Origin: Herbaspirillum sp. ST 5-3
Lineage (GTDB): Bacteria > Pseudomonadota > Gammaproteobacteria > Burkholderiales > Burkholderiaceae_D
NCBI RefSeq assembly: GCF_004804275.1
Contig: NZ_STGI01000003.1
Coordinates: forward strand, 372,001 to 436,000
Direction of reading: 5' to 3'
DNA length: 64,000 nucleotides
Positions 357 through 12,721 of the stretch are shown here, one piece after another (the first letter of the stretch is position 1; each line of letters begins with the position of its first letter). The position numbers and the translations under genes were made by a program. The notes under the pieces were generated by a model that was not told the DNA's origin, ran no database searches, and was given only the letters and a program-made list of their open reading frames with translations.

Positions 357-656
357 CTACCGGCGCCACAGGTAGCAGTGGGTCACGCCGGGAAAAGTCA
401 ATACGGCGAAAAACGCGGAACTGATCGTCCAGATTCTCCAATCCGTTGTCACCAACGTGCTTGTATGGCCTTCCAGAAAATAAGCAACAGTCATCCAGAG
501 AAAATAGAGAATCAGCCATTCCAATGCGCGAACCGCGCCAGACTTCACCTGCGCGCGCGAAAATGGCGGCAAGAGCCGGCGCTGAATGAGGAAGGGGGCA
601 TTTGCCATTGCAATGGCGGAAAGTAGCGATACGACGGCGGACTGCTCGGTAGTCAT
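357..656 (-). CDS. DUF2818-like small membrane protein
   Basis: Encodes 99 residues with a hydrophobic N-terminal segment (about residues 8-25, containing ANAPFL), a second segment around 45-62 (EWLILYFLWMTVAYFL) and a third around 75-92 ending in GVTHCYLWRR. Length, three-segment layout and the N-x-PFL and ...TFPG... signatures resemble the DUF2818 family of betaproteobacterial inner-membrane proteins, whose function is unknown. That family is often found beside respiratory complex I genes, but here it is the last gene of the run that contains ccsB, starting 27 bases after the ccsB stop. It is probably co-transcribed with the cytochrome maturation genes. The family call rests on recalled pattern only. 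Confidence 0.6.
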   Translation of the reverse strand: MTTEQSAVVSLLSAIAMANAPFLIQRRLLPPFSRAQVKSGAVRALEWLILYFLWMTVAYFLEGHTSTLVTTDWRIWTISSAFFAVLTFPGVTHCYLWRR

Positions 657-683
657 GAGGGGAGCTCTTACGAATCGGAATAG

Positions 684-1844
684 TCAAAGTGAGCCGTAGG
701 AATGCAGTCCGGAGAGAAAAATATTCACGCCCAGGAAGGCAAACAGCGTGATCACGAATCCGACTATTGCCCACCATGCCAGCACAGGGCCGTGCACATT
801 CCTGATCAAGCGCATGTGGAGCCATGCGGCATAGTTGATCCAGACGATGAGGGCCCAGGTCTCCTTCGGGTCCCATGACCAGTAGCCGCCCCACGCTTCC
901 GCCGCCCACAAGGCACCCAGGATGGTGGCGATCGTGAAGAAGACGAAGCCCAGCGCAATTGCCTTGTAAGTGAATTCCTCAATCCATTCGTGTGACGGCA
1001 GGCGAGACGAAAAATAGGAACGCTTTGACAGCAACTGCGCCGCACCGAGCATTGCTGCGATGGAGAAAGCGCCGTAGCCGATGAAATTGGCCGGGACATG
1101 CATTTTCATCCAATAGGACTTCAGCGCCGGAATCAGCGGCTGAATCTCGTGGATACTGGCGTCGGCGCCATACCAGAATGTGAATCCGACTGCCGCGCTC
1201 ACGGCCAGCATCACGAACGCGCCCAGCAAGCGGGTCTGGCAGCGCTGTTCAAGGTACAGGTAGAGCACGGTAGTCGTCAGCGAGAACAGAACAAAGACTT
1301 CGTATAGATTGGACACCGGGATATGTCCGATGTCGGCGCCAAGCAGATAGGATTCGTGCCAACGGATCAGCAAGCCAGCCAGCGCGAGAAAGCATGCCAG
1401 CCAGGCGACGCGGCTCCCGAGCTGCAGGGTCTGGTCGGAGCGGTGTATCCAGCCAAGGCCGTAAAGGAAGGTCGCGCCCCAAAACGCAGCACCCATCCAC
1501 ATGATGTTTGCCTGGCTCGACAGGAGATACTTCAGCAACATCGAGCTTTCGATTGATTCCAGCGACCCATGGTACAAAAGTACTGCCAGCAGGCTATACG
1601 CTACCGCTGTGGTGCTCAATCGTTGAATAGGTCTCCAGCGCATGCCGCCGATCGCGAGTGCCGCCGCGCTTATCAGCAATATGCCAATTTCGTAAACGTC
1701 CATCAGTGCCGAGAAATGCAGCAGCGCATACAGACTGCCGGCCGCCACGGCGCAGACGAAAATCAGATCATCAAGCTGCACCAACCTTTTACGGGATAGT
1801 CGACGGTCGACCCGGGTGTGGAGGGAGAGATCAGGAACTTGCAT
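684..1844 (-). CDS. ccsB: Cytochrome c biogenesis protein CcsB/ResC (system II, CcsA-type)
   Basis: A 386-residue integral membrane protein with about eight hydrophobic segments. It carries the haem-handling tryptophan-rich WWD signature WGGYWSWDPKETWAL near residues 317-331, followed by WINYAAWLHMR. In system II this protein works with ResB to move haem across the inner membrane and attach it to CXXCH motifs of apocytochromes c. Length is normal for the family. The start overlaps the end of resB by 14 bases, so the two are translationally coupled. The dedicated clients are likely the NcgB and NcgC cytochromes encoded upstream in the same run. Nothing is missing from the visible motif set. 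Confidence 0.93.
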   Translation of the reverse strand: MQVPDLSLHTRVDRRLSRKRLVQLDDLIFVCAVAAGSLYALLHFSALMDVYEIGILLISAAALAIGGMRWRPIQRLSTTAVAYSLLAVLLYHGSLESIESSMLLKYLLSSQANIMWMGAAFWGATFLYGLGWIHRSDQTLQLGSRVAWLACFLALAGLLIRWHESYLLGADIGHIPVSNLYEVFVLFSLTTTVLYLYLEQRCQTRLLGAFVMLAVSAAVGFTFWYGADASIHEIQPLIPALKSYWMKMHVPANFIGYGAFSIAAMLGAAQLLSKRSYFSSRLPSHEWIEEFTYKAIALGFVFFTIATILGALWAAEAWGGYWSWDPKETWALIVWINYAAWLHMRLIRNVHGPVLAWWAIVGFVITLFAFLGVNIFLSGLHSYGSL

Positions 1845-3861
1845 GAGGATTTCCTTGAGATTCGCCTGGTGAAAAAGATGGATTGGCCTTTCCCGTGGAG
1901 AGACGCGTCAGGCCGTAGCGTTGGACTATGAAGATATTTTCGATTCCCTTGATGTGAGCTTCGAACTCTTCATCGAGAAGCGGGCTGCCGCGATTGGCGG
2001 AGTAGGCAATCAGAAGTGTGCCGTGTTGCGCCGGAGACACCCACAGCCACAAGCGTCGTTCGCGAATGAAGTACATTGCGCAGACGCCGAGTGCCAGCAA
2101 GGCGGTACCGCCATAGACAACGCGCGCACCCGGCGCGTGCGTTACCTGCAATACCGATGAATTCACCTGGCCGATCGACACCGGTTCGAAGTAGATGGCG
2201 ATACGGGCGTCGCGCGCGTCGTCAAAAGCATTCAGGGCGTCATGCAAAAATCGGTCATTCTGCGCCGCAGGTCCGCCGATCATGGCGGCGGCCGCACGTT
2301 GCAGCAGTTCACCATAGATTCGGGCGGCCTTGGCTTGCTCGTTTTTCGGCAAATTGGCAGGGACCATGTCGACCACGCCGCGCCAGCCTTTCGTAGAAAA
2401 AATTTCCAGCAGCGTGGCAACCGTTTTTTGCAGGGGCAAGGCGAGCTCGGCATTTTTCGCAGACGCGCTCACCTGGTCCGCCGCTTTCGCAATCGCGGAC
2501 GTCTGTCCGAGCGATGCGCTCAGCTTGCGATAGCTGTCCAGGGTGCCGGCCGCATCGCGCGGAAATCTCACATACTTCAGCGCGTTCTCCGTTGCGTCGC
2601 GACGGCCGATTACCGCATAGCTGGCGTTGTCGATCGTGATCGGATTACGATAGACGTTCCATTCGCTCGCCTGGCCTAGTTTGTCGCGCAGGAGGAAGCT
2701 GAGTGATGCGCCGACATCCTCCATATTCGCCCTCACGTCGCGTTGCGAAAACCAGCCCGCTCCGGGTGACGACGCGAGTTTTGCAAATACGTTCATCGCG
2801 CGAAAGTCGGTGAATTCGACGGAATATGGTTCACCATTCAGCAGCAATGCGCTCGCTGCGCCGACCGTCCCATGAAAATGGACAGACTCCGACGGACGGT
2901 CCAGCCAATGCAGCTTCATGTCGACCTTCGTGCCGCCGTCGCCGAATCCCGACTGATACAAGGTGATGCCTCTATATGTAAAGGGATGATTGACCTGTAA
3001 TGTGGCGGCCTGCACCTTGTTGCCATCGATGATGTCGATATCGCTGGCGAAATCCCTGGGACGGCCATTGTCGTAGTGCTCGACGCGAAACCGCTTCATG
3101 TGAATCGAAAACGGAAGCTCCTGGAGCAGATAGCCGGTGTTAAAGAACAGGAGGGCACTACTGCCTGTGCTGCCCTCCACTAGATTCATCGTTGCACGAA
3201 ACGATCCGGAATCCGCAGCCAATCTGCTGTGCTGCGGCACCTCGTCCAGCGGCAGATCGCGCGTCTCGGTTTGCAGCAGGCCTGACCATAACTGAAGGCG
3301 TAACATGACATTCCCGTCGATCAGCCCGCCAACGCAAATCATCACGATCGCGCCATGCACAAGCAAATAGCCGAGGCGCCGCAAACCGCCGGCACGTGCG
3401 GCAAACAGCTGGCCACCGCCGTTGAGCGCACGCGTTCTGAAGCTGAATCGTTTGGTCTGCAGGTAGCTGCCGAGTGCGGCCAGCAGGGCAGCATGGCCGG
3501 CGCCGTCCCCGGCGTCCAGCGTGAATTCCCGACAATGCGGAGTACGTCGTAATCCGTCGAGTCCTTTGTGCTGCCGGAAAGCGCGCATCTCGCGCAGCAT
3601 GGATGGCGTGTTCTGGATCAGGCACAACGCCGTCGACGACGCCATGAACCCCAGCAGGACGAAGAACCACCACGCATGATAAATATCGGTCAGGCCGGCG
3701 AGCGACAGCAGCTCCGCCCAGAACTCGCCGTACTCGCTGATGTACAGGCTCGCCGGCTTTCCTTGCTCGAGCACGGAACCGATGGATGCCGCCATGGCGA
3801 CAACCGTCAGGATCGCAACGGCGAAGCGCATCGAGCGCAACAGGCGCAAGAGGTCCTTCAA
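1831..3861 (-). CDS. resB: Cytochrome c biogenesis protein ResB (system II)
   Basis: Begins LKDLLRLLRSMRFAVAIL, the usual ResB N-terminus with its RFLxSMRFA-type motif, followed by three N-terminal membrane segments, a long periplasmic domain and a last segment near the C-terminus (VVYGGTALLALGVCAMYF). The open frame extends much further upstream inside cusA, but family homology starts here. The best start is the TTG at 3859-3861, which overlaps the cusA TGA (3858-3860); an ATG at 3831 is a less likely alternative. About 676 residues, normal for ResB. It pairs with CcsB to export and ligate haem. The coupling to a copper efflux pump immediately upstream is unusual and suggests a shared task in making or protecting copper/haem enzymes. 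Confidence 0.9.
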   Translation of the reverse strand: MKDLLRLLRSMRFAVAILTVVAMAASIGSVLEQGKPASLYISEYGEFWAELLSLAGLTDIYHAWWFFVLLGFMASSTALCLIQNTPSMLREMRAFRQHKGLDGLRRTPHCREFTLDAGDGAGHAALLAALGSYLQTKRFSFRTRALNGGGQLFAARAGGLRRLGYLLVHGAIVMICVGGLIDGNVMLRLQLWSGLLQTETRDLPLDEVPQHSRLAADSGSFRATMNLVEGSTGSSALLFFNTGYLLQELPFSIHMKRFRVEHYDNGRPRDFASDIDIIDGNKVQAATLQVNHPFTYRGITLYQSGFGDGGTKVDMKLHWLDRPSESVHFHGTVGAASALLLNGEPYSVEFTDFRAMNVFAKLASSPGAGWFSQRDVRANMEDVGASLSFLLRDKLGQASEWNVYRNPITIDNASYAVIGRRDATENALKYVRFPRDAAGTLDSYRKLSASLGQTSAIAKAADQVSASAKNAELALPLQKTVATLLEIFSTKGWRGVVDMVPANLPKNEQAKAARIYGELLQRAAAAMIGGPAAQNDRFLHDALNAFDDARDARIAIYFEPVSIGQVNSSVLQVTHAPGARVVYGGTALLALGVCAMYFIRERRLWLWVSPAQHGTLLIAYSANRGSPLLDEEFEAHIKGIENIFIVQRYGLTRLSTGKANPSFSPGESQGNPHASS

Positions 3862-6800
3862 GCGAGCATGTCCAAGGGTTCGGCAGCCAGACCGCCGGGT
3901 TGCCTGCGCCGGTCCTGCGTGAGCAGCAGCGAATACGCCACCGGGATCACGATCAGCGAAAACAGCGGTGCGGACACCATGCCGCCGACCAGCGGTGCCG
4001 CAATGCGCTTCATGACGTCGGCGCCGGGCTGGTCGGAAAACATGATGGGCAACAATCCGCCCAGAATCACCGTGACGGTCATGGCTTTCGGACGCAGGCG
4101 CAACAATGCGCCGTTGATCAGCGCACGCATGACATCGGGGCTGGACGCAGCTGCATTGCTCCGCTCGGCTGCCAATGCATGGTCCAGATACAGCAACATG
4201 ACAATGCCGAATTCGGTAGCGACGCCGGCCAGGGCAATCAATCCGATCACCACCGCGACCGACAGCTCGTAACCGATCAGATAGGTGAACCACAGCCCGC
4301 CGATCAGCGAGAAGGGCAGGCAAAGCAGCACAAGGCCCACCTTGATGAAATTGCGAAAATGAATGTAGAGCAGTGTCACGATCAGCAAGAGCGTGAAGGA
4401 GACCGTTGTCCACAGGTGCGCCTTGCCTTGTTCGAAATTGAGGTACTGACCCTGCCATGCCATGCTGTAGCCCGGCGCGAGCTTGATCTTCTGGTCGAGC
4501 AAGGCGCGCGCCGCGGCCAGGTAACCGCCGACATCCTGTGTTTCCAGGTCGATGAAGACATAGGCCACAGGCCGCGCACCTTCGCTCTTGATCTCGGTCG
4601 GACCGTCGTTGATCTGCAGCCGGGCAACATCGCGCAAGGTGACGATCGCGCCGCCCGGCGCCTTGATCCGGATATCGCCCAGCGCGGCCACCGAATCGCG
4701 GCTGCTACGCGGATAACGCAAGGTGATCGGGAAGCGTTCCCGGCCGCTGACAATGGTTCCGGCCGATTCACCACCGAGCGCTCCCTGGACCACTTTCTGA
4801 ATGTCGGCGACACTCAGCCCGTGGCGTGCCGCTTTCTCGCGCTGGATGTCGATATCGATGTAACGGCCTGCATTAATGCGCTCGGCAAAGACGGAACGGG
4901 TCCCCGGCAATGTACGCAACAGCGACTCGATTTCGATCGAGCTGCGTTCCAACTGTCTGAGATCCGGCCCGCTGATCTTGATGCCCAGCGGTGTGCGGAT
5001 CCCGGTAGACAACATGTCGATCCGCGTCTTGATTGGATATCCCCAGGAGTTGGTCAGTCCTGCCAGTTGCACCGCATCTTCCAGCTTCTGGATCAGGTCG
5101 TCGGTGCTGCTGCCGGACGGCCATTGCGACTTTGGCTTGAGCATGATGGTCGTTTCCAGCATCGAGAGCGGCGCATTGTCGGTCGCAGTATCGGCCCGTC
5201 CCGCCTTGCCGAATACCCGTTCGACTTCGGGCATCGTCGCAATCAGGCTGTCGGTCCGGCGCAGGATATCCCCCGCTTCGTCTACCGACACCCCTGGCAT
5301 CGTGGTCGGCATGTACAGCAGGTCACCTTCATCCAGAGGCGGCATGAATTCGCTGCCCAGTCGGGTGACCGGCACGATCAGCGTCGCCAGTGTCAAGGCT
5401 GCGACACATATCACGAGCCAGGGATGACGCAGCGCGCCCTTGAGTGCAGGCGCGTACAGTCGCATCAGCACTCGGTTGACGGGATTGTCCGCTTCGGCGC
5501 GAATGCGCCCGCGGATTGCATAGCCCATCAGGACCGGTGTCAGGGTGATCGCCAGCATGGCGGCGGCGGCCATCGCATAGGTCTTGGTGTAGGCCAGCGG
5601 GGTGAACAGCTTGCCTTCCTGCCCGGTCAGGGTAAACACCGGCAAGAACGACACGGTAATGATCAAAAGCGAAAAAAACAGGGCAGGACCGACTTCGCCC
5701 GCCGCCTGCCTCACGACGGGCCAAATGTCCCTGCGGTCGGCAGCGCGCTGGCCGCGTAGTTCAAGGTGGCGATGCATGTTCTCGATCATGACGATGGCCG
5801 CGTCGACCATCGCGCCTACGGCAATGGCAATTCCGCCGAGCGACATGATATTGGCCGAGATGCCTTGCGCGCGCATTACATACAGCGCGGCCAGAATACC
5901 GATCGGCAGCGTGACGATGGCAACAAGCGAGGATCGAAGATGAAACAGGAAAACCCCGCATATCAAAGCCACCACCAGCGATTCTTCCAGCAGCTTGTCA
6001 CGCAGGGTGGTAACCGTGCTTTTGATCAACCGCGAACGGTCGTAGGTGGTGATGATCTCGACCCCGGGCGGCAGGCCGCGCTTGAGTTCTTCAAGGCGCG
6101 CCTTGACTGCGGCGACGGTGCTCAAGGCATTCTCGCCATGGCGCATGACGATGATGCCCCCGGTTGTCTCGCCCTTGCCATCGAGATCGGCCACGCCGCG
6201 GCGTGCCTGCGGACCTAGCGTCACATCGGCGACTTGACGCAACCGGATAACGTTACCAGCGCTATCAGTCATCACGGGGATGTCCCCGAAGTCCGCACGA
6301 TGACGCAGGTAGCCATTCGCACGCACCAGATATTCGGAGCGCGCCATTTCGAATGAAGCGCCTCCGCTCGACTGGTTGGCGTCCTTGATGGCCTGTGCGA
6401 CCTGGTCTGTCGTCACGCCGTGGGCGAGCAAGCGAAGCGGATCGATTTCAACCTGAAATTGCCTGGCCATGCCGCCGACGCTGGCGACCTCGGCAACGCC
6501 GGGAACGCTTTGCAATTCGAACTTCAGGAAGAAATCCTGCAAGGCGCGCAACTGGTCTGGAGCGGTTTCTCCGGTCTTGTCGACCAGCGCGTATTCATAG
6601 ACCCAGCCGACTCCGGTTGCATCGGGCCCGAGCGCCGGTGTCGCGCCGGGGGGCAAGCGGCTGCTGATTTGAGCGAGGTTTTCGAGAACCCGCGAGCGGG
6701 CCCAGTAGAGATCGGTCCGGTCCTTGAAAATCACATAGACATACGATTCGCCGAACATCGAAAACCCGCGTACGGCCTTTGTGCCCGGCACGGAAAGCAG

Positions 6801-7016
6801 CGATGCCGTCAGCGGATAGGTAATCTGATCTTCGACGAACTGCGGTGCCTGCCCCGGAAACTCGGTCTTCACGATAACCTGCACATCGGACAGGTCCGGC
6901 AAAGCATCGAGCGCAAGCCGTGACAGCGACTCGATGCCGAGTATCGTCAGTACCAGGCTGAACATCAGCACAAGCACGCGATTGTTGATCGACCAGTCGA
7001 TGATCCGCTTAATCAC
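3858..7016 (-). CDS. cusA: CusA/CzcA-type heavy-metal RND efflux pump
   Basis: A 1052-residue inner-membrane RND transporter of the HME family with twelve predicted membrane segments and two large periplasmic loops. It begins MIKRIIDWSINNRVLVLMFS, the standard HME start. Copper/silver specificity is suggested by methionines where CusA has its three-Met binding site: MPTTMPG near residue 573, SMLETTIMLKP near 620 and RIDMLSTGIRTP near 668. CusA pumps Cu(I)/Ag(I) from periplasm and cytoplasm through CusB to an outer-membrane channel using the proton gradient. The start lies two bases after the cusB stop. No cusC-like outer-membrane channel or cusF is nearby, so the channel must come from elsewhere. 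Confidence 0.93.
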   Translation of the reverse strand: MIKRIIDWSINNRVLVLMFSLVLTILGIESLSRLALDALPDLSDVQVIVKTEFPGQAPQFVEDQITYPLTASLLSVPGTKAVRGFSMFGESYVYVIFKDRTDLYWARSRVLENLAQISSRLPPGATPALGPDATGVGWVYEYALVDKTGETAPDQLRALQDFFLKFELQSVPGVAEVASVGGMARQFQVEIDPLRLLAHGVTTDQVAQAIKDANQSSGGASFEMARSEYLVRANGYLRHRADFGDIPVMTDSAGNVIRLRQVADVTLGPQARRGVADLDGKGETTGGIIVMRHGENALSTVAAVKARLEELKRGLPPGVEIITTYDRSRLIKSTVTTLRDKLLEESLVVALICGVFLFHLRSSLVAIVTLPIGILAALYVMRAQGISANIMSLGGIAIAVGAMVDAAIVMIENMHRHLELRGQRAADRRDIWPVVRQAAGEVGPALFFSLLIITVSFLPVFTLTGQEGKLFTPLAYTKTYAMAAAAMLAITLTPVLMGYAIRGRIRAEADNPVNRVLMRLYAPALKGALRHPWLVICVAALTLATLIVPVTRLGSEFMPPLDEGDLLYMPTTMPGVSVDEAGDILRRTDSLIATMPEVERVFGKAGRADTATDNAPLSMLETTIMLKPKSQWPSGSSTDDLIQKLEDAVQLAGLTNSWGYPIKTRIDMLSTGIRTPLGIKISGPDLRQLERSSIEIESLLRTLPGTRSVFAERINAGRYIDIDIQREKAARHGLSVADIQKVVQGALGGESAGTIVSGRERFPITLRYPRSSRDSVAALGDIRIKAPGGAIVTLRDVARLQINDGPTEIKSEGARPVAYVFIDLETQDVGGYLAAARALLDQKIKLAPGYSMAWQGQYLNFEQGKAHLWTTVSFTLLLIVTLLYIHFRNFIKVGLVLLCLPFSLIGGLWFTYLIGYELSVAVVIGLIALAGVATEFGIVMLLYLDHALAAERSNAAASSPDVMRALINGALLRLRPKAMTVTVILGGLLPIMFSDQPGADVMKRIAAPLVGGMVSAPLFSLIVIPVAYSLLLTQDRRRQPGGLAAEPLDMLA

Positions 7017-7018
7017 GC

Positions 7019-8407
7019 TTACATCTCTCCGGAGTGATGGCGATGCTGCACGGCGGCGATCTCCTTGTCAGAACCGCCGGCTTGCGGCTCTTGGCGGGAA
7101 ACGGTGGCGTCTTCGGCCGTCTGGCGGCGCTGCATGGACTGAATCGATGACGCGGAATCGAGCAGGAACTGTCCGTTGGTGGCCACGCGCGTACCCGCGC
7201 GTAATCCGTCCAGGACCTCGACCATCTCGTGGTCTTCCAGCCCAGGCTTCACTTCAACGGTGTGAAAGCGGCCGTCTGCCTCGCTGATGACGACAAAGTC
7301 GCCGTGGCCGGTGCGAATGAGTGCATCTCTCGGCACAGCCAGCGCGCGCCGCGCCTGGCTGTGGATTTCCACGTCGGCGAATGCGCCGGGAAGAAACGCT
7401 TGACCGTCATTGGCCAGCGCGATCTTCAGCTTCGCCGTTCTGGTGACCGGATCGATCTGCAAGGTCGACAGATCCACTTTGGTCCTGAGCTGTTTCGTTT
7501 CTTGAAAGCTCGACGTCAACACGATGTCGTCGCCATTCCGGATCCAGTTGAGCTGGTCCGGAAACACCGTGACTTCGGCCCACACCCGACGATAGTCCGC
7601 ATAGGTCAGGATGGGCTGCATCGGATTGACGGCATTGCCTTCGCGCGCGGATACCCCGGTCACGATGCCGTCCTGCGATGCGCGTACTGGAACGACATCG
7701 AAGATACGGCGCTGCTTGTCCAGGACCTGAATCACCTCGGGCGGCACGTCGGCTGCGAGCAGGCGGTCCCGCGCCCTGAAGCGCTCCCTCGCCAGGCTTC
7801 CCAGCATCGTGCCGCTGGGTCCGCCGATTTCCATGCCGGCGCCGGTGAGCGCATCGCGCCGGGTCAGCAGGTCGATGTAGTCGCGCTGCCTCTGCTGCAG
7901 TTCCGGCGAGTAGATCTCAAACAAGACCTGCCCCTTCTTGATCGCCTGCCCGACGCCCTGCACGTGCAAGCGCCGTATCCAGCCGTCGAACTTTGGCGTC
8001 ACGACAATACTTCGGCTTTCATCGGCGTGGATCGACGCGTAGGTGCTGGCGGTATGGTGCATCTGCGTGAGGGACGCAACTTCCGTTCTGACTCCCATGC
8101 GCATCCGCGTCGCTTCATCGATGTGCACCTGGTCATGTGCAGGATCCCTGGCTTCAGCGGCGGTCTTGATCAGTGTCATTCCGCAGATCGGGCAGTCGCC
8201 GGGTTTGTCGTGCAATACGTCGGGATGCATCGAGCAGGTATATATCTCACCGAGGCCGACAGCATCCGGCACACCACGATGGGCGGTTGCCGGGCCGGCA
8301 GCGACGCTGGCAGGCAGTGGGCGATATAGCGCGGCGCCATAGCCGAGTGCTGCCGAAACCGCCGCCGTGACGCCCCAGCCAAGAAGCCGTTTCCGTGTTG
8401 TATTCAT
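7019..8407 (-). CDS. cusB: CusB-type RND periplasmic adaptor with N-terminal heavy-metal-binding domain
   Basis: A 462-residue membrane-fusion protein. Residues 1-30 form a signal/anchor segment. Around residues 55-80 lies a short metal-binding domain, YTCSMHPDVLHDKPGDCPICGM, with the CxMHP...CPxCGM pattern typical of CusB-like adaptors. Barrel-sandwich and hairpin regions follow (QVLFEIYSPELQQRQRDY), then a beta-barrel domain and a His/Met-poor tail ending in HRHHSGEM. The adaptor bridges CusA to an outer-membrane channel and collects Cu(I). It is followed two bases later by cusA and preceded by a small protein that carries the same CSMHP/CPIC motif, implying a metal relay. Confidence 0.92.
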   Translation of the reverse strand: MNTTRKRLLGWGVTAAVSAALGYGAALYRPLPASVAAGPATAHRGVPDAVGLGEIYTCSMHPDVLHDKPGDCPICGMTLIKTAAEARDPAHDQVHIDEATRMRMGVRTEVASLTQMHHTASTYASIHADESRSIVVTPKFDGWIRRLHVQGVGQAIKKGQVLFEIYSPELQQRQRDYIDLLTRRDALTGAGMEIGGPSGTMLGSLARERFRARDRLLAADVPPEVIQVLDKQRRIFDVVPVRASQDGIVTGVSAREGNAVNPMQPILTYADYRRVWAEVTVFPDQLNWIRNGDDIVLTSSFQETKQLRTKVDLSTLQIDPVTRTAKLKIALANDGQAFLPGAFADVEIHSQARRALAVPRDALIRTGHGDFVVISEADGRFHTVEVKPGLEDHEMVEVLDGLRAGTRVATNGQFLLDSASSIQSMQRRQTAEDATVSRQEPQAGGSDKEIAAVQHRHHSGEM

Positions 8408-8429
8408 GATGTTGCCGCTCGGCGTCGTG

Positions 8430-8708
8430 TCACGTCGGCTTGACCTTGACCAGCCGCATGTTGCAGATCGGGCAGTTGCCCGGTTTGTCGCTCATGACGC
8501 GCGGGTGCATGGAGCATGTGTATTTGTCCTGGGTCGCGGCAAGCTTCGCCGACACGCCGTGCCCGGCGTCGGCTGAAGTCGCGGGCGCCTGGGTCGGCAT
8601 AGGCGGGTTGGCTTCGCGCGGCGCGTGATTGATCCGGGCGTAGACCATGGCCGAAGATAGTGCCATTGTTGCACCGGCACCGATGAAGAGTCGTCGTTTG
8701 ATGTTCAT
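8430..8708 (-). CDS. Small exported heavy-metal-binding protein (CSMHP...CPICNM motif)
   Basis: Encodes 92 residues: an N-terminal signal or anchor helix (MNIKRRLFIGAGATMALSSA), a Pro/Ala-rich linker, then YTCSMHPRVMSDKPGNCPIC with a final NMRLVKVKPT. The metal-binding unit is nearly identical in pattern to the N-terminal domain of the CusB encoded next. The start at 8708 is chosen because a GGAAGG ribosome site lies just upstream; an in-frame ATG at 8735 lacks one. Likely a periplasmic or membrane-tethered copper carrier between NirK/NcgA and CusAB, by analogy with CusF, although the fold differs. Function is inferred from motif and position only. Confidence 0.8.
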   Translation of the reverse strand: MNIKRRLFIGAGATMALSSAMVYARINHAPREANPPMPTQAPATSADAGHGVSAKLAATQDKYTCSMHPRVMSDKPGNCPICNMRLVKVKPT

Positions 8709-8781
8709 GAAAATACCTTCCGTCGAAATGCTCATGGGGAGAGATATGAAAGGCGGGCCTCGCCCTTCATATCTCGCAGGA

Positions 8782-9711
8782 TCAGCGGACCAGGATGTTT
8801 TCGCCGCGGCCCATCTTGGGATCGGCATCCTTGGTGAATTGCAGCACCGCGATCGCGCCGGTCAGCGCCTGCTGCATCGAATGCGATACCAGCGCGTTGG
8901 CGCCTTCAATCGGTGAAACGATATCGAAGGTTGCTGCATCGCCCGGGCCGACCACATAGGTCTGCAGGCCGGTGATCGCATTTTTCGGATTGCCGCTCGG
9001 GTAGACCTTGTCCCAGATGCCGGCGATCGCATGGAACGACGAAAACTCGTTGGGGCCGGCATTGATGAAGTAAATGCGAACACGTTCGCCCGGCTTTGCC
9101 TGCAGCATGCGCGTGGCCGCCGGATCGTGTACCGGGTCATACTTGAAAACGCCGCCGTTGAACATGACGTTGCTCCATTTCTTCGCCATCATGTCTTTCT
9201 GGTTGTCCGGGTTCGGATAAAGCTCGGACTGGATCAAGACGTATTCGCGATCCGCTTTCGGCATTGCGTTGGCATCCTTCGGATCGACGATGATCGCACC
9301 GTACATGCCGCGCGCGATGTGCTGGATCATCGGATCGGCGCCGCAGTGGTAGAAGAAGATGCCGGGATGCGAGGCATTGAAGGTGAAGCTGCCTTTTTCC
9401 CCTGGCTTCACTGCTTCGAAATCCTTGAGGACGTCGAACTGACCGGCGTGCATGTCCATCGAATGGGAATTCTTGTTGTTCTTGTCGTTGAACAGCGTGA
9501 ATTCGACGGTGTCGCCTTCGGCGACATGCACCACGGGGCCCGGAACCTGACCCTCAAACGTCCAGCTGCGGTACATCGTGCCCTTGTTATCGATCGGCAA
9601 ATCAACTTCCTTTGCCGTCATCGATATCTTGACCGTTTTGGCCTCGACGCCGGTCGCCGCCAGCATCGCCAGTGCCGCGGACACGGCGGCCAGTGCTATT
9701 TTCATTTTCAT
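8782..9711 (-). CDS. nirK: Two-domain copper nitrite reductase (NirK)
   Basis: A 309-residue secreted protein with a signal peptide ending about VEAKT. Copper ligands match NirK: His83 and Asp86-x-His88 in HSMDMHAG, His122-Cys123 in FFYHCGADPM, His131 and Met136 for the type 1 site, with His227 (SFHAIAG) and His277 (VSHSMQQA) in the second cupredoxin domain completing the type 2 site. The enzyme reduces nitrite to nitric oxide in the periplasm with electrons from a cupredoxin or cytochrome c. It is the fourth gene of an ncgABC-nirK operon, as in Nitrosomonas europaea, where it contributes to nitrite tolerance under NsrR control. A related two-domain oxidase without reductase activity cannot be excluded by sequence. 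Confidence 0.85.
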   Translation of the reverse strand: MKMKIALAAVSAALAMLAATGVEAKTVKISMTAKEVDLPIDNKGTMYRSWTFEGQVPGPVVHVAEGDTVEFTLFNDKNNKNSHSMDMHAGQFDVLKDFEAVKPGEKGSFTFNASHPGIFFYHCGADPMIQHIARGMYGAIIVDPKDANAMPKADREYVLIQSELYPNPDNQKDMMAKKWSNVMFNGGVFKYDPVHDPAATRMLQAKPGERVRIYFINAGPNEFSSFHAIAGIWDKVYPSGNPKNAITGLQTYVVGPGDAATFDIVSPIEGANALVSHSMQQALTGAIAVLQFTKDADPKMGRGENILVR

Positions 9712-9739
9712 CTTTTTTCCCCTTGTTTGGTTTGGATAT

Positions 9740-10114
9740 TCAATTGCTCGCAGTCTTGCTGACGAAGCGCAGGTAACTCACCATCTCCTTGATTTGATCG
9801 TCGTTTAACACTCCCCCCCATTTCGGCATAAGAACGGATTTGCTCACGGCCAGGCCACCTTCCTTGATCGCCTTGAACAAGGTCGCGTCAGGCGTATCGC
9901 CCATCGCTTTTGAATCGGTATGGTCGCGCGGCTTGACCGACATGCTCTTGCTGTTGATGCCATTGCCGTCGCGATTGACGCCATGGCACTGCACGCAGTA
10001 AGTGTTGTAGATCTTGATCGAGGCGGCATGCGTATCGTCCGCCCATGCGGCAGCTGACAACAGACTCGTTAATGAAGCGGCCACCAGGGCCAGCGTGGTT
10101 GGGTGGCGCATCAT
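9740..10114 (-). CDS. ncgC: Periplasmic monohaem cytochrome c (NcgC-like)
   Basis: A 124-residue class I cytochrome c with a signal peptide ending near AAAWADD. The haem site is CVQCH at residues 40-44 and the probable distal ligand is Met96 in SVLMPKWGG. The start codon overlaps the TGA of the diheme cytochrome gene (ATGATGA), so the two are translationally coupled; ATG codons at 10114 and 10111 both fit, and 10114 gives the ATGA overlap. Gene order and size match NcgC of the Nitrosomonas ncgABC-nirK operon. It probably carries electrons between the quinone or cytochrome pool and NirK or NcgA. The partner assignment is inference. Confidence 0.87.
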   Translation of the reverse strand: MMRHPTTLALVAASLTSLLSAAAWADDTHAASIKIYNTYCVQCHGVNRDGNGINSKSMSVKPRDHTDSKAMGDTPDATLFKAIKEGGLAVSKSVLMPKWGGVLNDDQIKEMVSYLRFVSKTASN

Positions 10115-10803
10115 TTCTTCTCCGTGGACTTGAGGGTTGCGATATAGCCGGCCAGTTTTTGCACATCGCCGTCGTTCAGATCGAGTGTCGGCATCCACAC
10201 ATGCGGATCGAATTTTTGCGGGTCCTTCAAGTAGGAAACGACAAAGTCCGGTTGCAAGCGGTTGCCCGCGGTGTACATCTCGGGTCCGGATGCGCCGCCA
10301 CTGCCGGGTTTGGCCGCATGGCAGGAGGTACAGCCGCGCAGTTTCGAGAACAGCATCGCTGCCATCGACGCGTTGACCGGTGCGCTCTTGAATGCGCCTT
10401 TCTCGACCAGCGCGTCATCCTTCAATGCCATCAGCGCGTCGGCGGCCGATACGGCGTCCTCTTTCGACAGCTTGATATGCTCCGCCAGTTTGCTGCTATC
10501 GATGGCGTCGGCTTCCTTGTTGGCGCTGGCCTTGACGACCTTCGAATACATGACGCCGCCAGGCCGCAAGGTGGTCGGGTTCTGCAACCAGCTGACCAGC
10601 CATTCGCGGTTGAACTTGTTGCCCGCATAATGCAGATCCGGGCCCTTGCGTTCCCACAGATGGTCGAGCGATGCTTTTTCGGGCTTGCTGACTGCGTGGC
10701 AGGCAACGCACTGCTGCTTCAGAAGATCCTGCCCGCTGCCGGCCCACGCAGTCAGCGTCGTCGCGCCGAGTGCCAACGCCCCCACTACAAGATTGAAATT
10801 CAT
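10111..10803 (-). CDS. ncgB: Periplasmic dihaem cytochrome c (NcgB-like)
   Basis: A 230-residue exported protein with signal peptide (cleavage near AWAGS) and two haem c attachment sites, CVACH at 32-36 and CTSCH at 158-162, one in each half, so it looks like a tandem duplication of a class I cytochrome domain. Both haems would be attached by the ResB-CcsB pair encoded downstream. It lies 14 bases after the multicopper oxidase gene, in the position of NcgB in the ncgABC-nirK operon. In Nitrosomonas the ncg products are needed to tolerate the products of NirK; the exact electron route here is not known. Confidence 0.88.
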   Translation of the reverse strand: MNFNLVVGALALGATTLTAWAGSGQDLLKQQCVACHAVSKPEKASLDHLWERKGPDLHYAGNKFNREWLVSWLQNPTTLRPGGVMYSKVVKASANKEADAIDSSKLAEHIKLSKEDAVSAADALMALKDDALVEKGAFKSAPVNASMAAMLFSKLRGCTSCHAAKPGSGGASGPEMYTAGNRLQPDFVVSYLKDPQKFDPHVWMPTLDLNDGDVQKLAGYIATLKSTEKK

Positions 10804-10817
10804 TTGTCACTCCCTGT

Positions 10818-11867
10818 TTATTGAATTGCCTGACCTTTGAAGACCTCGTTGGTGTAGATGCCAGGACCCTTTTTCAACGATTCTTCGTAGTAGAAGTCGG
10901 GCTGGAATTTCTTGTCCTTCCAGTCGTACCAGGTATCGTTGTTCTTGATCTCGTTGTATTCGAGCACGCTCATGATTCCACCCATTGGGCGGTTGCCGTT
11001 CATGGTGTGGGTATCGACGTGGTCGTGAATCATCCAGCGGCCGGGATTGTCTGCGGTGAAGATGACGTCGTAGCGCTCGCCGGGCGAGATCGATACGGTA
11101 TCGCCGGAGATCGGGTTGGCCAGCGGGAAGCCATCCTTGAAGGCAATCTTCATGACGTGGCCATGCAAGTGAATGCTGTGGACCAGATCGCCTGCGCCGA
11201 TAAACCGAAGACGTACGACATCGCCCTTGTTGACGCGCAATGGTTGCGTCTCCGGATAGGATTTGCCGTTGATGGTGAAGTAGTTGTAGACGCCACCGGG
11301 AACGCCGCCGAAGCCGGGTTTCTCCGCGTATTCCGATTCCCAGTCGGATAGCATCAGGATGAAGTCCTTGGTGACGGATTTTTCCAGGGCTGTCGGTTTT
11401 TTCGGGCGAACGATAAACGGGCCGAACATGCCGCGCAGGGTAACGTGTTCATTCACATTGACATGGCAGTGATACCAGAATGTTCCGGATGGCTCGGCAG
11501 TGAATTTGTACGTGAAGCTGTCGCCGGGCTCGATCGCGGTTTGCGTCACGCCCGGTACGCCATCATTGCGCCAGGTACCACGTTGCAGCATGCCGTGCCA
11601 GTGGATGGTGTGCGGCAGGGCCGTCATGTTGTTGACGTTGACCGTCAGCTCATCGCCTTCATCGACATAAAACAGGGGACCGGGTACCTGGCCGCCATAA
11701 GCGAAGGTGTGGTACTGCTGCTTTTCCACCAAAGTGATGCGCGTATCTTCAATATTCATCTCGAAGTTCCGCTTGGCGGCGACCGCTTGTGTGACAGAGA
11801 GAGCGCCTACGAGCAGGATGCTTCCCGCTGCGAGGAGTTTTCGCAATCTCGTTCCCCAACTATGCAT
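10818..11867 (-). CDS. ncgA: Two-domain multicopper oxidase, type 1 copper in domain 1 (NcgA-like)
   Basis: A 349-residue secreted oxidase with a signal peptide ending near AVAAKRN. Domain 1 holds HTIHWHG (His86, 89, 91) and WYHCHVNVNEH with Cys134, His135, His141 and Met147, so a complete type 1 centre lies in domain 1. Domain 2 has HSIHLHGH (230-237) and HDHVDTH (281-287), where the cysteine expected in many oxidases is Asp282. Domain 2 thus supplies only type 2/type 3 ligands, the pattern of type C two-domain oxidases thought to be related to NirK. First gene of the ncgABC-nirK operon, preceded by an FNR-type box and an NsrR-like operator. The substrate is unknown; Cu(I) or an NO-related species are possible. 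Confidence 0.87.
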   Translation of the reverse strand: MHSWGTRLRKLLAAGSILLVGALSVTQAVAAKRNFEMNIEDTRITLVEKQQYHTFAYGGQVPGPLFYVDEGDELTVNVNNMTALPHTIHWHGMLQRGTWRNDGVPGVTQTAIEPGDSFTYKFTAEPSGTFWYHCHVNVNEHVTLRGMFGPFIVRPKKPTALEKSVTKDFILMLSDWESEYAEKPGFGGVPGGVYNYFTINGKSYPETQPLRVNKGDVVRLRFIGAGDLVHSIHLHGHVMKIAFKDGFPLANPISGDTVSISPGERYDVIFTADNPGRWMIHDHVDTHTMNGNRPMGGIMSVLEYNEIKNNDTWYDWKDKKFQPDFYYEESLKKGPGIYTNEVFKGQAIQ

Positions 11868-11883
11868 AATTCCCCCTTATATA

Positions 11884-11906
11884 AACAGGTATATTAAATA
11901 CCACTT
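11884..11906 (-). promoter_or_regulatory. Candidate NsrR operator upstream of ncgA
   Basis: A 23-base near-palindrome centred on 11895, core GTATATTAAATAC (11889-11901) inside perfect GGTAT/ATACC arms. Against the NsrR consensus as I recall it (AAGATGYATTT, one base, then its mirror image) 17 of 22 defined positions agree, and 12 of 13 in the core including the free centre. It lies 17 bases upstream of the ncgA start, and nsrR is the next gene upstream, so NO-relieved repression of the operon is the simple reading. Match counted by eye. Confidence 0.6.
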
Positions 11907-11944
11907 TAAATGCAAAAAAAATGACTTCGATTTCTTGTCGGTTC

Positions 11945-11958
11945 TTGATCTGGGTCAA
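11945..11958 (-). promoter_or_regulatory. FNR/Anr/Dnr-type box upstream of ncgA
   Basis: TTGATctggGTCAA fits the FNR-family consensus TTGAT-N4-ATCAA with one change (GTCAA is a common variant half-site). Centre 11951.5 is 84 bases upstream of the ncgA start. If it acts as a class II activator site, transcription would begin near 11910, immediately before the NsrR-like operator, which would place the repressor over the start of the transcript. The -10 region at the predicted distance is only a run of T and is weak. Low-oxygen or NO-dependent activation is inferred. Confidence 0.6.
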
Positions 11959-12244
11959 TTTTAAAACAAGTAAATCGTATACATGTTTAAATTTTTCTGC
12001 AATGAAAATGTAGAATTCTGCTACGTCATGCAAGGCTATTGATTGGCGTGGAGGATAGACTAAGCATCCGACAGGGAGGCTGCGGCCTGCCTGCGACATG
12101 AGGATGAGCAGTGGCGGAAGGCGATGGCATATGCCCGCTCAAATACACAGTGTCGTTCCCCGGTATTGGCTGGTGCTGTGCCGTATGACCCTTGCCGTGA
12201 TTGCAGCGCAGGGGACCGGATGGACGGATAGTGAAGCAGCGACG

Positions 12245-12721
12245 CTATCCGGTCTTCTTTCTGGGGGTGCGGTGGATCCGTATCGGCTGTGGGGTGACCA
12301 CGCGTTTGACAGGCGGACGGCTATCGTTAATCAAGTCATCCAGCGTGGCGCTGTCAAGTATCGCGAGATAGGCATCGGTCGCCCGGTGCAATAAACCTCT
12401 GAGCTTGCACGTCGGGGTCAGCACACACTTGTTGTTGATCCGATCGAAGCACTCGACCATGAAGAAATCGCTCTCGGTGCTGCGTATTATTTCCCCGATA
12501 TTGATGCTCTGCGATTCCATTTTTAGCCGGATGCCGCCGTTACGGCCACGTACTGTCTCGATGATCTCGGCAACACTCAGTTGATACACGATCTTCATCA
12601 GATGGTTCTTGGAGATGTCGTGCACGTCGGCGATATCCTGTGCTGTCACCAACCGGTCGCGATTGACGCCAAGATACATCAGTACACGCAATGTATAGTC
12701 AGTGTAAGCCGTAAGTCTCAT
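12245..12721 (-). CDS. nsrR: Rrf2-family NO-sensing repressor NsrR
   Basis: 158 residues starting MRLTAYTDYTLRVLMYLG, the classic Rrf2/NsrR start, with a winged helix to about residue 65. Cysteines 91, 99 and 105 in ECFDRINNKCVLTPTCKL form the [4Fe-4S]-ligating C-x7-C-x5-C set; E. coli NsrR has C-x4-C-x5-C at nearly the same positions. NO destroys the cluster and releases DNA, derepressing NO-response genes. The gene sits directly upstream of ncgABC-nirK on the same strand, as in other NsrR loci. The C-terminus is extended by a basic tail (PIRIHRTPRKKTG). The open frame runs farther upstream, but 12721 is the conserved family start. Confidence 0.88.
   Translation of the reverse strand: MRLTAYTDYTLRVLMYLGVNRDRLVTAQDIADVHDISKNHLMKIVYQLSVAEIIETVRGRNGGIRLKMESQSINIGEIIRSTESDFFMVECFDRINNKCVLTPTCKLRGLLHRATDAYLAILDSATLDDLINDSRPPVKRVVTPQPIRIHRTPRKKTG

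Follow-up and report, generated by a model that had tools for sequence, protein, structure and literature searches.

Within a 64,000-nucleotide stretch of the Herbaspirillum sp. ST 5-3 genome (contig NZ_STGI01000003.1, positions 372,001 to 436,000; hereafter, the window), the genes for the copper nitrite reductase NirK and its companions NcgA, NcgB, and NcgC form one run with genes for a CusBA copper pump and a ResB-CcsB cytochrome c synthetase, and this linkage recurs in distant genera with CusA and ResB lineages of its own. On balance, we favor reading the run as one inherited functional module, namely a nitric oxide (NO)-responsive periplasmic nitrite/NO unit equipped with a dedicated copper exporter and a dedicated cytochrome c synthetase. 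Earlier reports have already described the ncgABC-nirK core in ammonia oxidizers, nitrite oxidizers, and Zetaproteobacteria; what appears to be new here is the extension of this known core by a CusA clade and a ResB group of its own. A literature search by titles and abstract openings, whose coverage excluded most subscription papers, returned none on nirK with cusBA or resB-ccsB.

Gene order and spacing

The run lies on the minus strand between positions 357 and 12721, and its gene names were checked by family scans and matches to PDB. In the order of that strand, its genes are:

12245..12721, minus strand: nsrR, NsrR-like regulator of the Rrf2 family (Pfam Rrf2, 119 bits, 1.9e-34; three cluster cysteines)
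10818..11867, minus strand: ncgA, two-domain multicopper oxidase (best PDB match 3g5w, E 3.6e-161)
10111..10803, minus strand: ncgB, diheme cytochrome c (two CXXCH motifs)
9740..10111, minus strand: ncgC, monoheme cytochrome c (one CXXCH motif)
8782..9711, minus strand: nirK, copper nitrite reductase of the ncg type (best PDB match 4kns, E 2.6e-146)
8430..8708, minus strand: small protein of 92 residues with an HMBD metal-binding motif (Pfam HMBD, 7.7e-13)
7019..8407, minus strand: cusB, membrane-fusion protein with HMBD at its N-terminus (family scan)
3858..7016, minus strand: cusA, heavy-metal efflux resistance-nodulation-division (HME-RND) pump with methionines of the Cu(I)/Ag(I) type (PDB CusA, 1196 bits)
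1831..3861, minus strand: resB, System II subunit with a TTG start (Pfam ResB, about 338-339 bits)
684..1844, minus strand: ccsB, System II subunit with a WWD motif (NCBIfam CcsB, 237 bits against a cut-off of 187.6)
357..656, minus strand: gene for a DUF2818 protein, the last of the run (family scan)

Every gene named in the initial annotation is thus found at its place and strand, and the Nitrosomonas order proposed there for ncgABC-nirK is borne out by the N. europaea locus (L102), which matches in the same order. Spacing is close in two segments. From ncgA to nirK, the spacers are 14 (ncgA-ncgB), -1 (ncgB-ncgC), and 28 bases (ncgC-nirK), and from cusB to ccsB they are 2 (cusB-cusA), -4 (cusA-resB), and -14 bases (resB-ccsB), with the TTG start of resB sitting on the cusA stop. 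By coordinates, 22 bases separate the HMBD gene from cusB and 27 separate ccsB from the DUF2818 gene. At the junction of nirK with the HMBD gene, 73 bases enclose a hairpin. The nsrR gene lies 377 bases from ncgA and is therefore not simply the leading gene of a tight run. On the far side of the run, the eight open reading frames scanned past the DUF2818 gene contain no copper, heme, or nitrogen-oxide families.

Recurrence of the linkage

A pattern scan with one genome per species returned 308 NirK relatives, the best 80 of which are our named loci (81 loci with the window; L052 and L053 repeat L082 and L119 and stand outside the named counts). Full ncgABC, for which we require an NcgA separate from NirK, lies upstream of nirK in 72/81 loci. 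The remaining nine are four loci that begin at or near a contig end (L112, L118, L144, and L149), three from Nitrospira (L137, L142, and L147), and two of Mariprofundus type (L143 and L150). Directly downstream, cusB/cusA is present in 29/74 loci having at least 1.5 kb of downstream sequence, and among those having at least 7 kb, cusA occurs in 26/62 and resB in 12/62; in these downstream counts and in those by identity below, L143 is scored as lacking cus, its cusBA lying 4.4-5.6 kb after the nirK start. When loci other than the window are sorted by NirK identity to it, cus is found in 26/29 at 70% or above, in 0/28 at 60-70%, and in 2/16 below 60%. The middle group includes Nitrosomonas, Nitrobacter, and Sphingopyxis, whose loci have neither cus nor res at this place. 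In place of cus, L104 (11054-14748), L107, and L110 have genes for a PepSY membrane protein and a TonB-dependent receptor after nirK.

The genera in which cusBA follows ncg-nirK include Duganella, Cupriavidus, Inhella, Mitsuaria, Paucibacter, Thiobacillus, and Gallionella, along with an acidobacterium. The resB gene is present in 12/81 loci (11/80 named), always together with cusA, and resB-ccsB follows cus in Duganella (4 loci), Cupriavidus (2), Inhella, Mitsuaria, Paucibacter, Pelomonas, and one metagenome-assembled genome (MAG) of the Burkholderiaceae. The initial annotation's linkage of ncg-nirK with cus and res is thereby found conserved among relatives. We reject a chance neighborhood, since recurrence of the order in distant genera, together with the separate groups formed by linked CusA and ResB, amounts to more than chance.

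The distribution itself is patchy. At E 1e-60, the window NirK has matches in 11/399 genomes of the order and 24/369 of the class (own genome counted), and within the genus, 8/15 genomes have a match at E 1e-40. This patchiness suggests mobility. At E 1e-60, the window NirK has no match in 72,556 plasmid records, and no relative was confirmed in viral contigs.

The CusBA pump

The window CusA scores 1170 bits against the NCBIfam CusA/CzcA model, above the cut-off of 701, and aligns over its full length with the PDB CusA. Its methionines M569/M619/M668 align with M573/M623/M672 of E. coli CusA. This triad is found in 22/22 nirK-linked rows and 12/14 other rows, missing in two rows of CzcA type, and both members of the pair corresponding to M271 and M755 are retained in 1/36 rows. 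For CusB, the NCBIfam CusB model gives 121.9 bits, under its cut-off of 390, and the RND adaptor model gives 111.9 bits against a cut-off of 94.9, which it exceeds. By a strict pattern, a second HMBD motif lies near cusB in 5/28 other cus loci. The genome has another CusA on contig C40, which is 50% identical and whose locus includes CusC and a CusB with a CusF domain.

To place the linked pumps, we inferred a quick CusA tree from 22 linked rows (L143 taken as linked) and 14 others, with branch support from the Shimodaira-Hasegawa-like approximate likelihood ratio test (SH-aLRT) only. In this tree, 21/22 linked rows and one other row form a single clade (SH-aLRT 100). The added row comes from a Gallionella MAG (L237:6225-11717), where a second CusBA stands tail to tail with another NirK-type gene. 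L097 sits on a long branch and its placement is unsure.

The window run contains neither CusC nor CusF, the HMBD protein standing in the stead of the latter. When the genome's own CusC was used as a tblastn query across loci, a CusC was found inside a linked cus set in L143 alone; the one other match, in L084, belongs to a separate cus set. With export from the cell not assured in this way, and with the HMBD mini-protein adjoining nirK, it is conceivable that CusBA and the HMBD proteins serve supply rather than defense, recovering or routing copper to load NirK and NcgA. We regard this as the least probable of the readings considered here: CusA retains the export-type methionines and could borrow the CusC of the C40 locus, and relatives have the same enzymes without cus.

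The ResB-CcsB set

The window ResB has a weak PDB match and a strong Pfam match, and the window CcsB is nearest to solved cytochrome c biogenesis proteins. Thirteen CcsB rows were checked, one of which (L096) is a CcmF; the WWD motif and histidine positions are conserved in all 12 CcsB rows and in the L096 CcmF as well. The four-base cusA/resB overlap recurs in 9/12 resB loci. A second ResB-CcsB set on contig C39 is 34% (ResB) and 57% (CcsB) identical to that of the window, and its ResB is the better match to the family (502 bits vs about 338-339). Elsewhere in the same genome, L242 (C23:535000-553067) yields a partial match to ResB, a weak one to the COX1 family, and two that are CcsB-like.

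Phylogenetic inference separates the linked and unlinked copies of ResB. One branch of the ResB tree splits 12 linked from 12 unlinked sequences (support 100/100; root unknown), and a second, unlinked ResB is present in 11/11 searched genomes bearing a linked one. The tree leaves out two unlinked fragments of G729, the partial match at C23:540740 of the window's own genome, and the unlinked copy of D. callida.

A parallel to this arrangement is seen in Rhodanobacter fulvus (L096:10845-14732), where three System I genes (ccmF, ccmH, and one like cycH) directly follow ncgABC-nirK, and where the ccmF at the ncg locus is one of two in the genome. Here, in a single case, other genes establish the equivalent functional link. 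Among 45 Rhodanobacter genomes, there are seven NirK matches at E 1e-60, six of which have just 43-46% identity, and the ncg type is found in R. fulvus alone. A CcmF search across the remaining loci (79 named, 20 unnamed) gave only weak CcsB similarity in eleven resB loci.

The ncgABC-nirK core

The best PDB matches of NcgA and NirK, 3g5w and 4kns, are Nitrosomonas europaea proteins. NirK scores 191 bits against the NCBIfam copper nitrite reductase model, under its cut-off of 296, and the top NCBIfam model for NcgA is a copper-resistance oxidase at 147 bits, far under its cut-off of 479. We examined residues in 24 chosen loci, comprising the window, 18 further cus-bearing loci, and 5 that lack cus. 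All nine positions checked in NirK are conserved (24/24), as are the 15 checked in NcgA, including its copper ligands (23/23 true rows, the L149 row being a mis-hit). NcgC has one CXXCH motif in 24/24 loci. NcgB has two in 22/24, the exceptions, each with a single motif, being L149, where the contig begins inside the gene, and L097. The window thus shows four features of an ncgABC-nirK cluster: the order on one strand, the oxidase ligand set, a diheme NcgB with a monoheme NcgC, and a nearby nsrR with iron-sulfur (Fe-S) cysteines.

A further NirK is encoded on contig C1 (L241:9124-16650). It is 40% identical and carries a fused cytochrome domain, such that the ncg NirK is not the sole NirK of the genome. 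It adjoins COX1-family, CbbQ/NorQ-family, and VWA genes resembling norB, norQ, and norD.

The copper-resistance model found for NcgA raises the alternative that the run is copper resistance first, with NcgA oxidizing cuprous copper in the manner of CopA/CueO, copper cleared by CusBA and the HMBD proteins, and NirK and the cytochromes a side activity. The presence of HMBD and of the pump methionines agrees with this, as does a distant CusA relative (21-24%) encoded upstream on the opposite strand in six named loci of Thiobacillus type. We nonetheless consider it improbable: full ncgABC-nirK occurs without cus in many named loci, NsrR-like boxes precede the run, copper resistance offers no known role for the cytochromes or ResB-CcsB, and the genome's cus locus on C40, which includes CusC and a CusF domain, stands separately.

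Regulation and expression of the run

The top PDB matches of the window regulator are NsrR proteins (5n07 at 1e-18, with the cysteines aligned). Its NCBIfam scores are 122.8 bits for NsrR and 125.2 bits for RirA, each under the respective cut-off. Among 60 testable loci, 38 have nsrR no more than 2 kb upstream of ncgA; it is divergent in 25 of these and reads in the same direction in 13. Three further features of the window bear on expression:

11884..11906, minus strand: NsrR-like inverted repeat of 23 bases, its final base 16 bases ahead of the ncgA start
11945..11958, minus strand: FNR/Dnr-like site TTGACCCAGATCAA, upstream of ncgA
8741..8775, minus strand: 15-pair hairpin right after nirK, without a T-run (z -2.83 and -2.77)

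The inverted repeat agrees with 17/22 positions of an NsrR consensus (shuffle p 0.025). Across the named loci and the window, NsrR-like boxes at p<=0.05 against shuffles occur in 49/69 upstream regions vs 5/65 control stretches after nirK; by group, they occur in 46/56 regions where NirK identity is at least 60% and in 21/27 of the cus-bearing loci. These counts may reflect control of the run by an NsrR, presumably the one encoded beside it. Upstream of the NsrR-like box (window 11906), a second shared element, TTTAAACATGTATAC, was read by eye in the window and three Duganella loci (L074, L075, and L076). The FNR/Dnr-like site TTGACCCAGATCAA was dropped as a family feature, as it has matches in only 8/97 upstream regions.

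Given the strong hairpin after nirK, full-length co-transcription is not to be assumed. Folds with z<=-2 on the 3' side of nirK are found in 18/29 cus loci and 31/52 non-cus loci, with differing sequences, and in two close relatives (L072 and L073) the hairpin is followed by a T-run, like an intrinsic terminator. Partial termination or protection of the 3' end may thus keep expression of ncg-nirK higher than that of cus-res. In the other eleven resB loci, the nirK-cusB gap is 43-64 bases in nine, which leaves little space for a separate promoter, and 177 and 230 bases in two Cupriavidus loci (starts estimated). Three promoter-like sites were found in 13.4 kb (shuffle mean 5.7). One weak site (9/12) lies directly ahead of the cusB start, where an internal promoter may be located.

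Proposed function

In the mechanism we propose, NO would inactivate the Fe-S regulator NsrR, and the box ahead of ncgA would be freed. NirK and the oxidase NcgA would exchange electrons via the heme proteins NcgB and NcgC, with nitrite and NO kept at tolerable levels. CusBA would clear Cu(I) that is loaded in excess or freed from damaged copper sites, and the extra ResB-CcsB would fix heme to NcgB and NcgC if housekeeping assembly is short or impaired. This cofactor logic fits the arrangement, in that both helper machines are diverged paralogs beside other genome copies and System I genes are found there in one other lineage.

Published work is consistent with such a role. In N. europaea, nitrite tolerance is conferred by nirK and ncgABC, and nirK is harmful in ncg mutants (PMC5080386); the title of a 2004 paper ties NsrR to nirK expression in this organism. 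In gonococci, copper raises nitrite sensitivity (PMC9280163). As of 2020, the role of NcgABC was called not fully elucidated (PMC6967387).

Several observations weigh against a single module. The core does not need its helpers, as 37 named loci, including those of Nitrosomonas and Nitrobacter, carry full ncgABC-nirK without cus. The one linked CusA outside the clade is that of Mariprofundus, encoded 4.4-5.6 kb from nirK. CusA and NirK groupings are also partly at odds: within the clade, CusA of Thiobacillus type groups with that of Gallionella (support 93, below the 95 mark), though their NirK identities to the window are 75 and 58%, respectively, which hints at an exchange of parts. In a mirror-tree comparison, NirK distances correlate with those of linked (r 0.83) and unlinked ResB (r 0.77) nearly equally, so that this comparison cannot part co-inheritance from species history. 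The System I parallel is a single locus, the other 44 Rhodanobacter genomes being without ncg-type NirK. NsrR-like boxes occur in just 3/13 upstream regions of the farther group (NirK below 60%), and those of L084, L096, and L097 have no box exceeding shuffles. Finally, the nirK hairpin, T-tailed in L072 and L073, may stop most transcripts.

Some of these observations would suit neighborhood accretion, in which independent units are co-inherited merely because the region moves as a block. The patchy distribution, with NirK above 40% identity found only in the window's own genome among the 15 of the genus, is in line with this, as are the hairpin that separates nirK from cus and the distance correlations that do not discriminate. 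We consider accretion rather unlikely, however, given the same order in several proteobacterial lineages and an acidobacterium, the overlapping gene ends, the one CusA clade and one ResB group, and the System I genes at the equivalent place in Rhodanobacter.

A different account of the enzymes is that the module is an oxygen-driven NO oxidase, with NirK running in reverse (NO to nitrite) and electrons passing via NcgC and NcgB to NcgA, where O2 is reduced. In the literature, NO oxidation by a backward-running NirK has been put forward, and its generality has been questioned. If true, this reading would explain the harm done by nirK in the absence of the ncg genes (NirK would then run forward, making NO), and the run would be a self-contained form of the NO oxidase still sought in nitrifiers, here with its own copper export and heme attachment. 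We hold this to be a doubtful prospect.

We thus retain the reading of the run as an inherited nitrite/NO unit with dedicated helpers. The initial annotation had suggested an NO/nitrite and copper defence unit, a label that may be apt. The conserved linkage supports that interpretation in part; nsrR is divergent in 25 of the 38 loci where it lies near ncgA, and DUF2818 recurs, as partial matches, only in four Duganella loci. Copper export and heme attachment appear to be dedicated parts of one nitrogen-oxide run, the latter by System II in one lineage and System I in another. Nitrifiers are slow to handle, and the same set is present in heterotrophs (Duganella and Cupriavidus), where single parts can be deleted.

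Comparison with known systems

The Zetaproteobacterial nirK-ncg cluster (PMC3603346) resembles the window in that NcgA-like oxidases and NcgB/NcgC-like cytochromes adjoin nirK in organisms other than ammonia oxidizers; the passages describing it mention no copper pump or cytochrome assembly genes. With the ncgABC-nirK cluster of N. europaea and its NsrR, the window shares gene order and protein types (68/57/52/68% identity to L102 for NcgA/B/C/NirK), the proximity of nsrR, and box-like sites, but the Nitrosomonas loci in our set have no cusBA, resB-ccsB, or HMBD gene. The window ResB-CcsB matches the Pfam and NCBIfam models of System II and retains the WWD motif and histidines. It differs from the usual set in being a diverged second copy sited in a nirK run. 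Likewise, the window CusA aligns over its full length with its counterpart in E. coli CusCFBA and keeps the methionine triad, whereas the run, without CusC and CusF, has HMBD at the CusB N-terminus and in a small protein, and its CusA belongs to a nirK-linked clade of its own.

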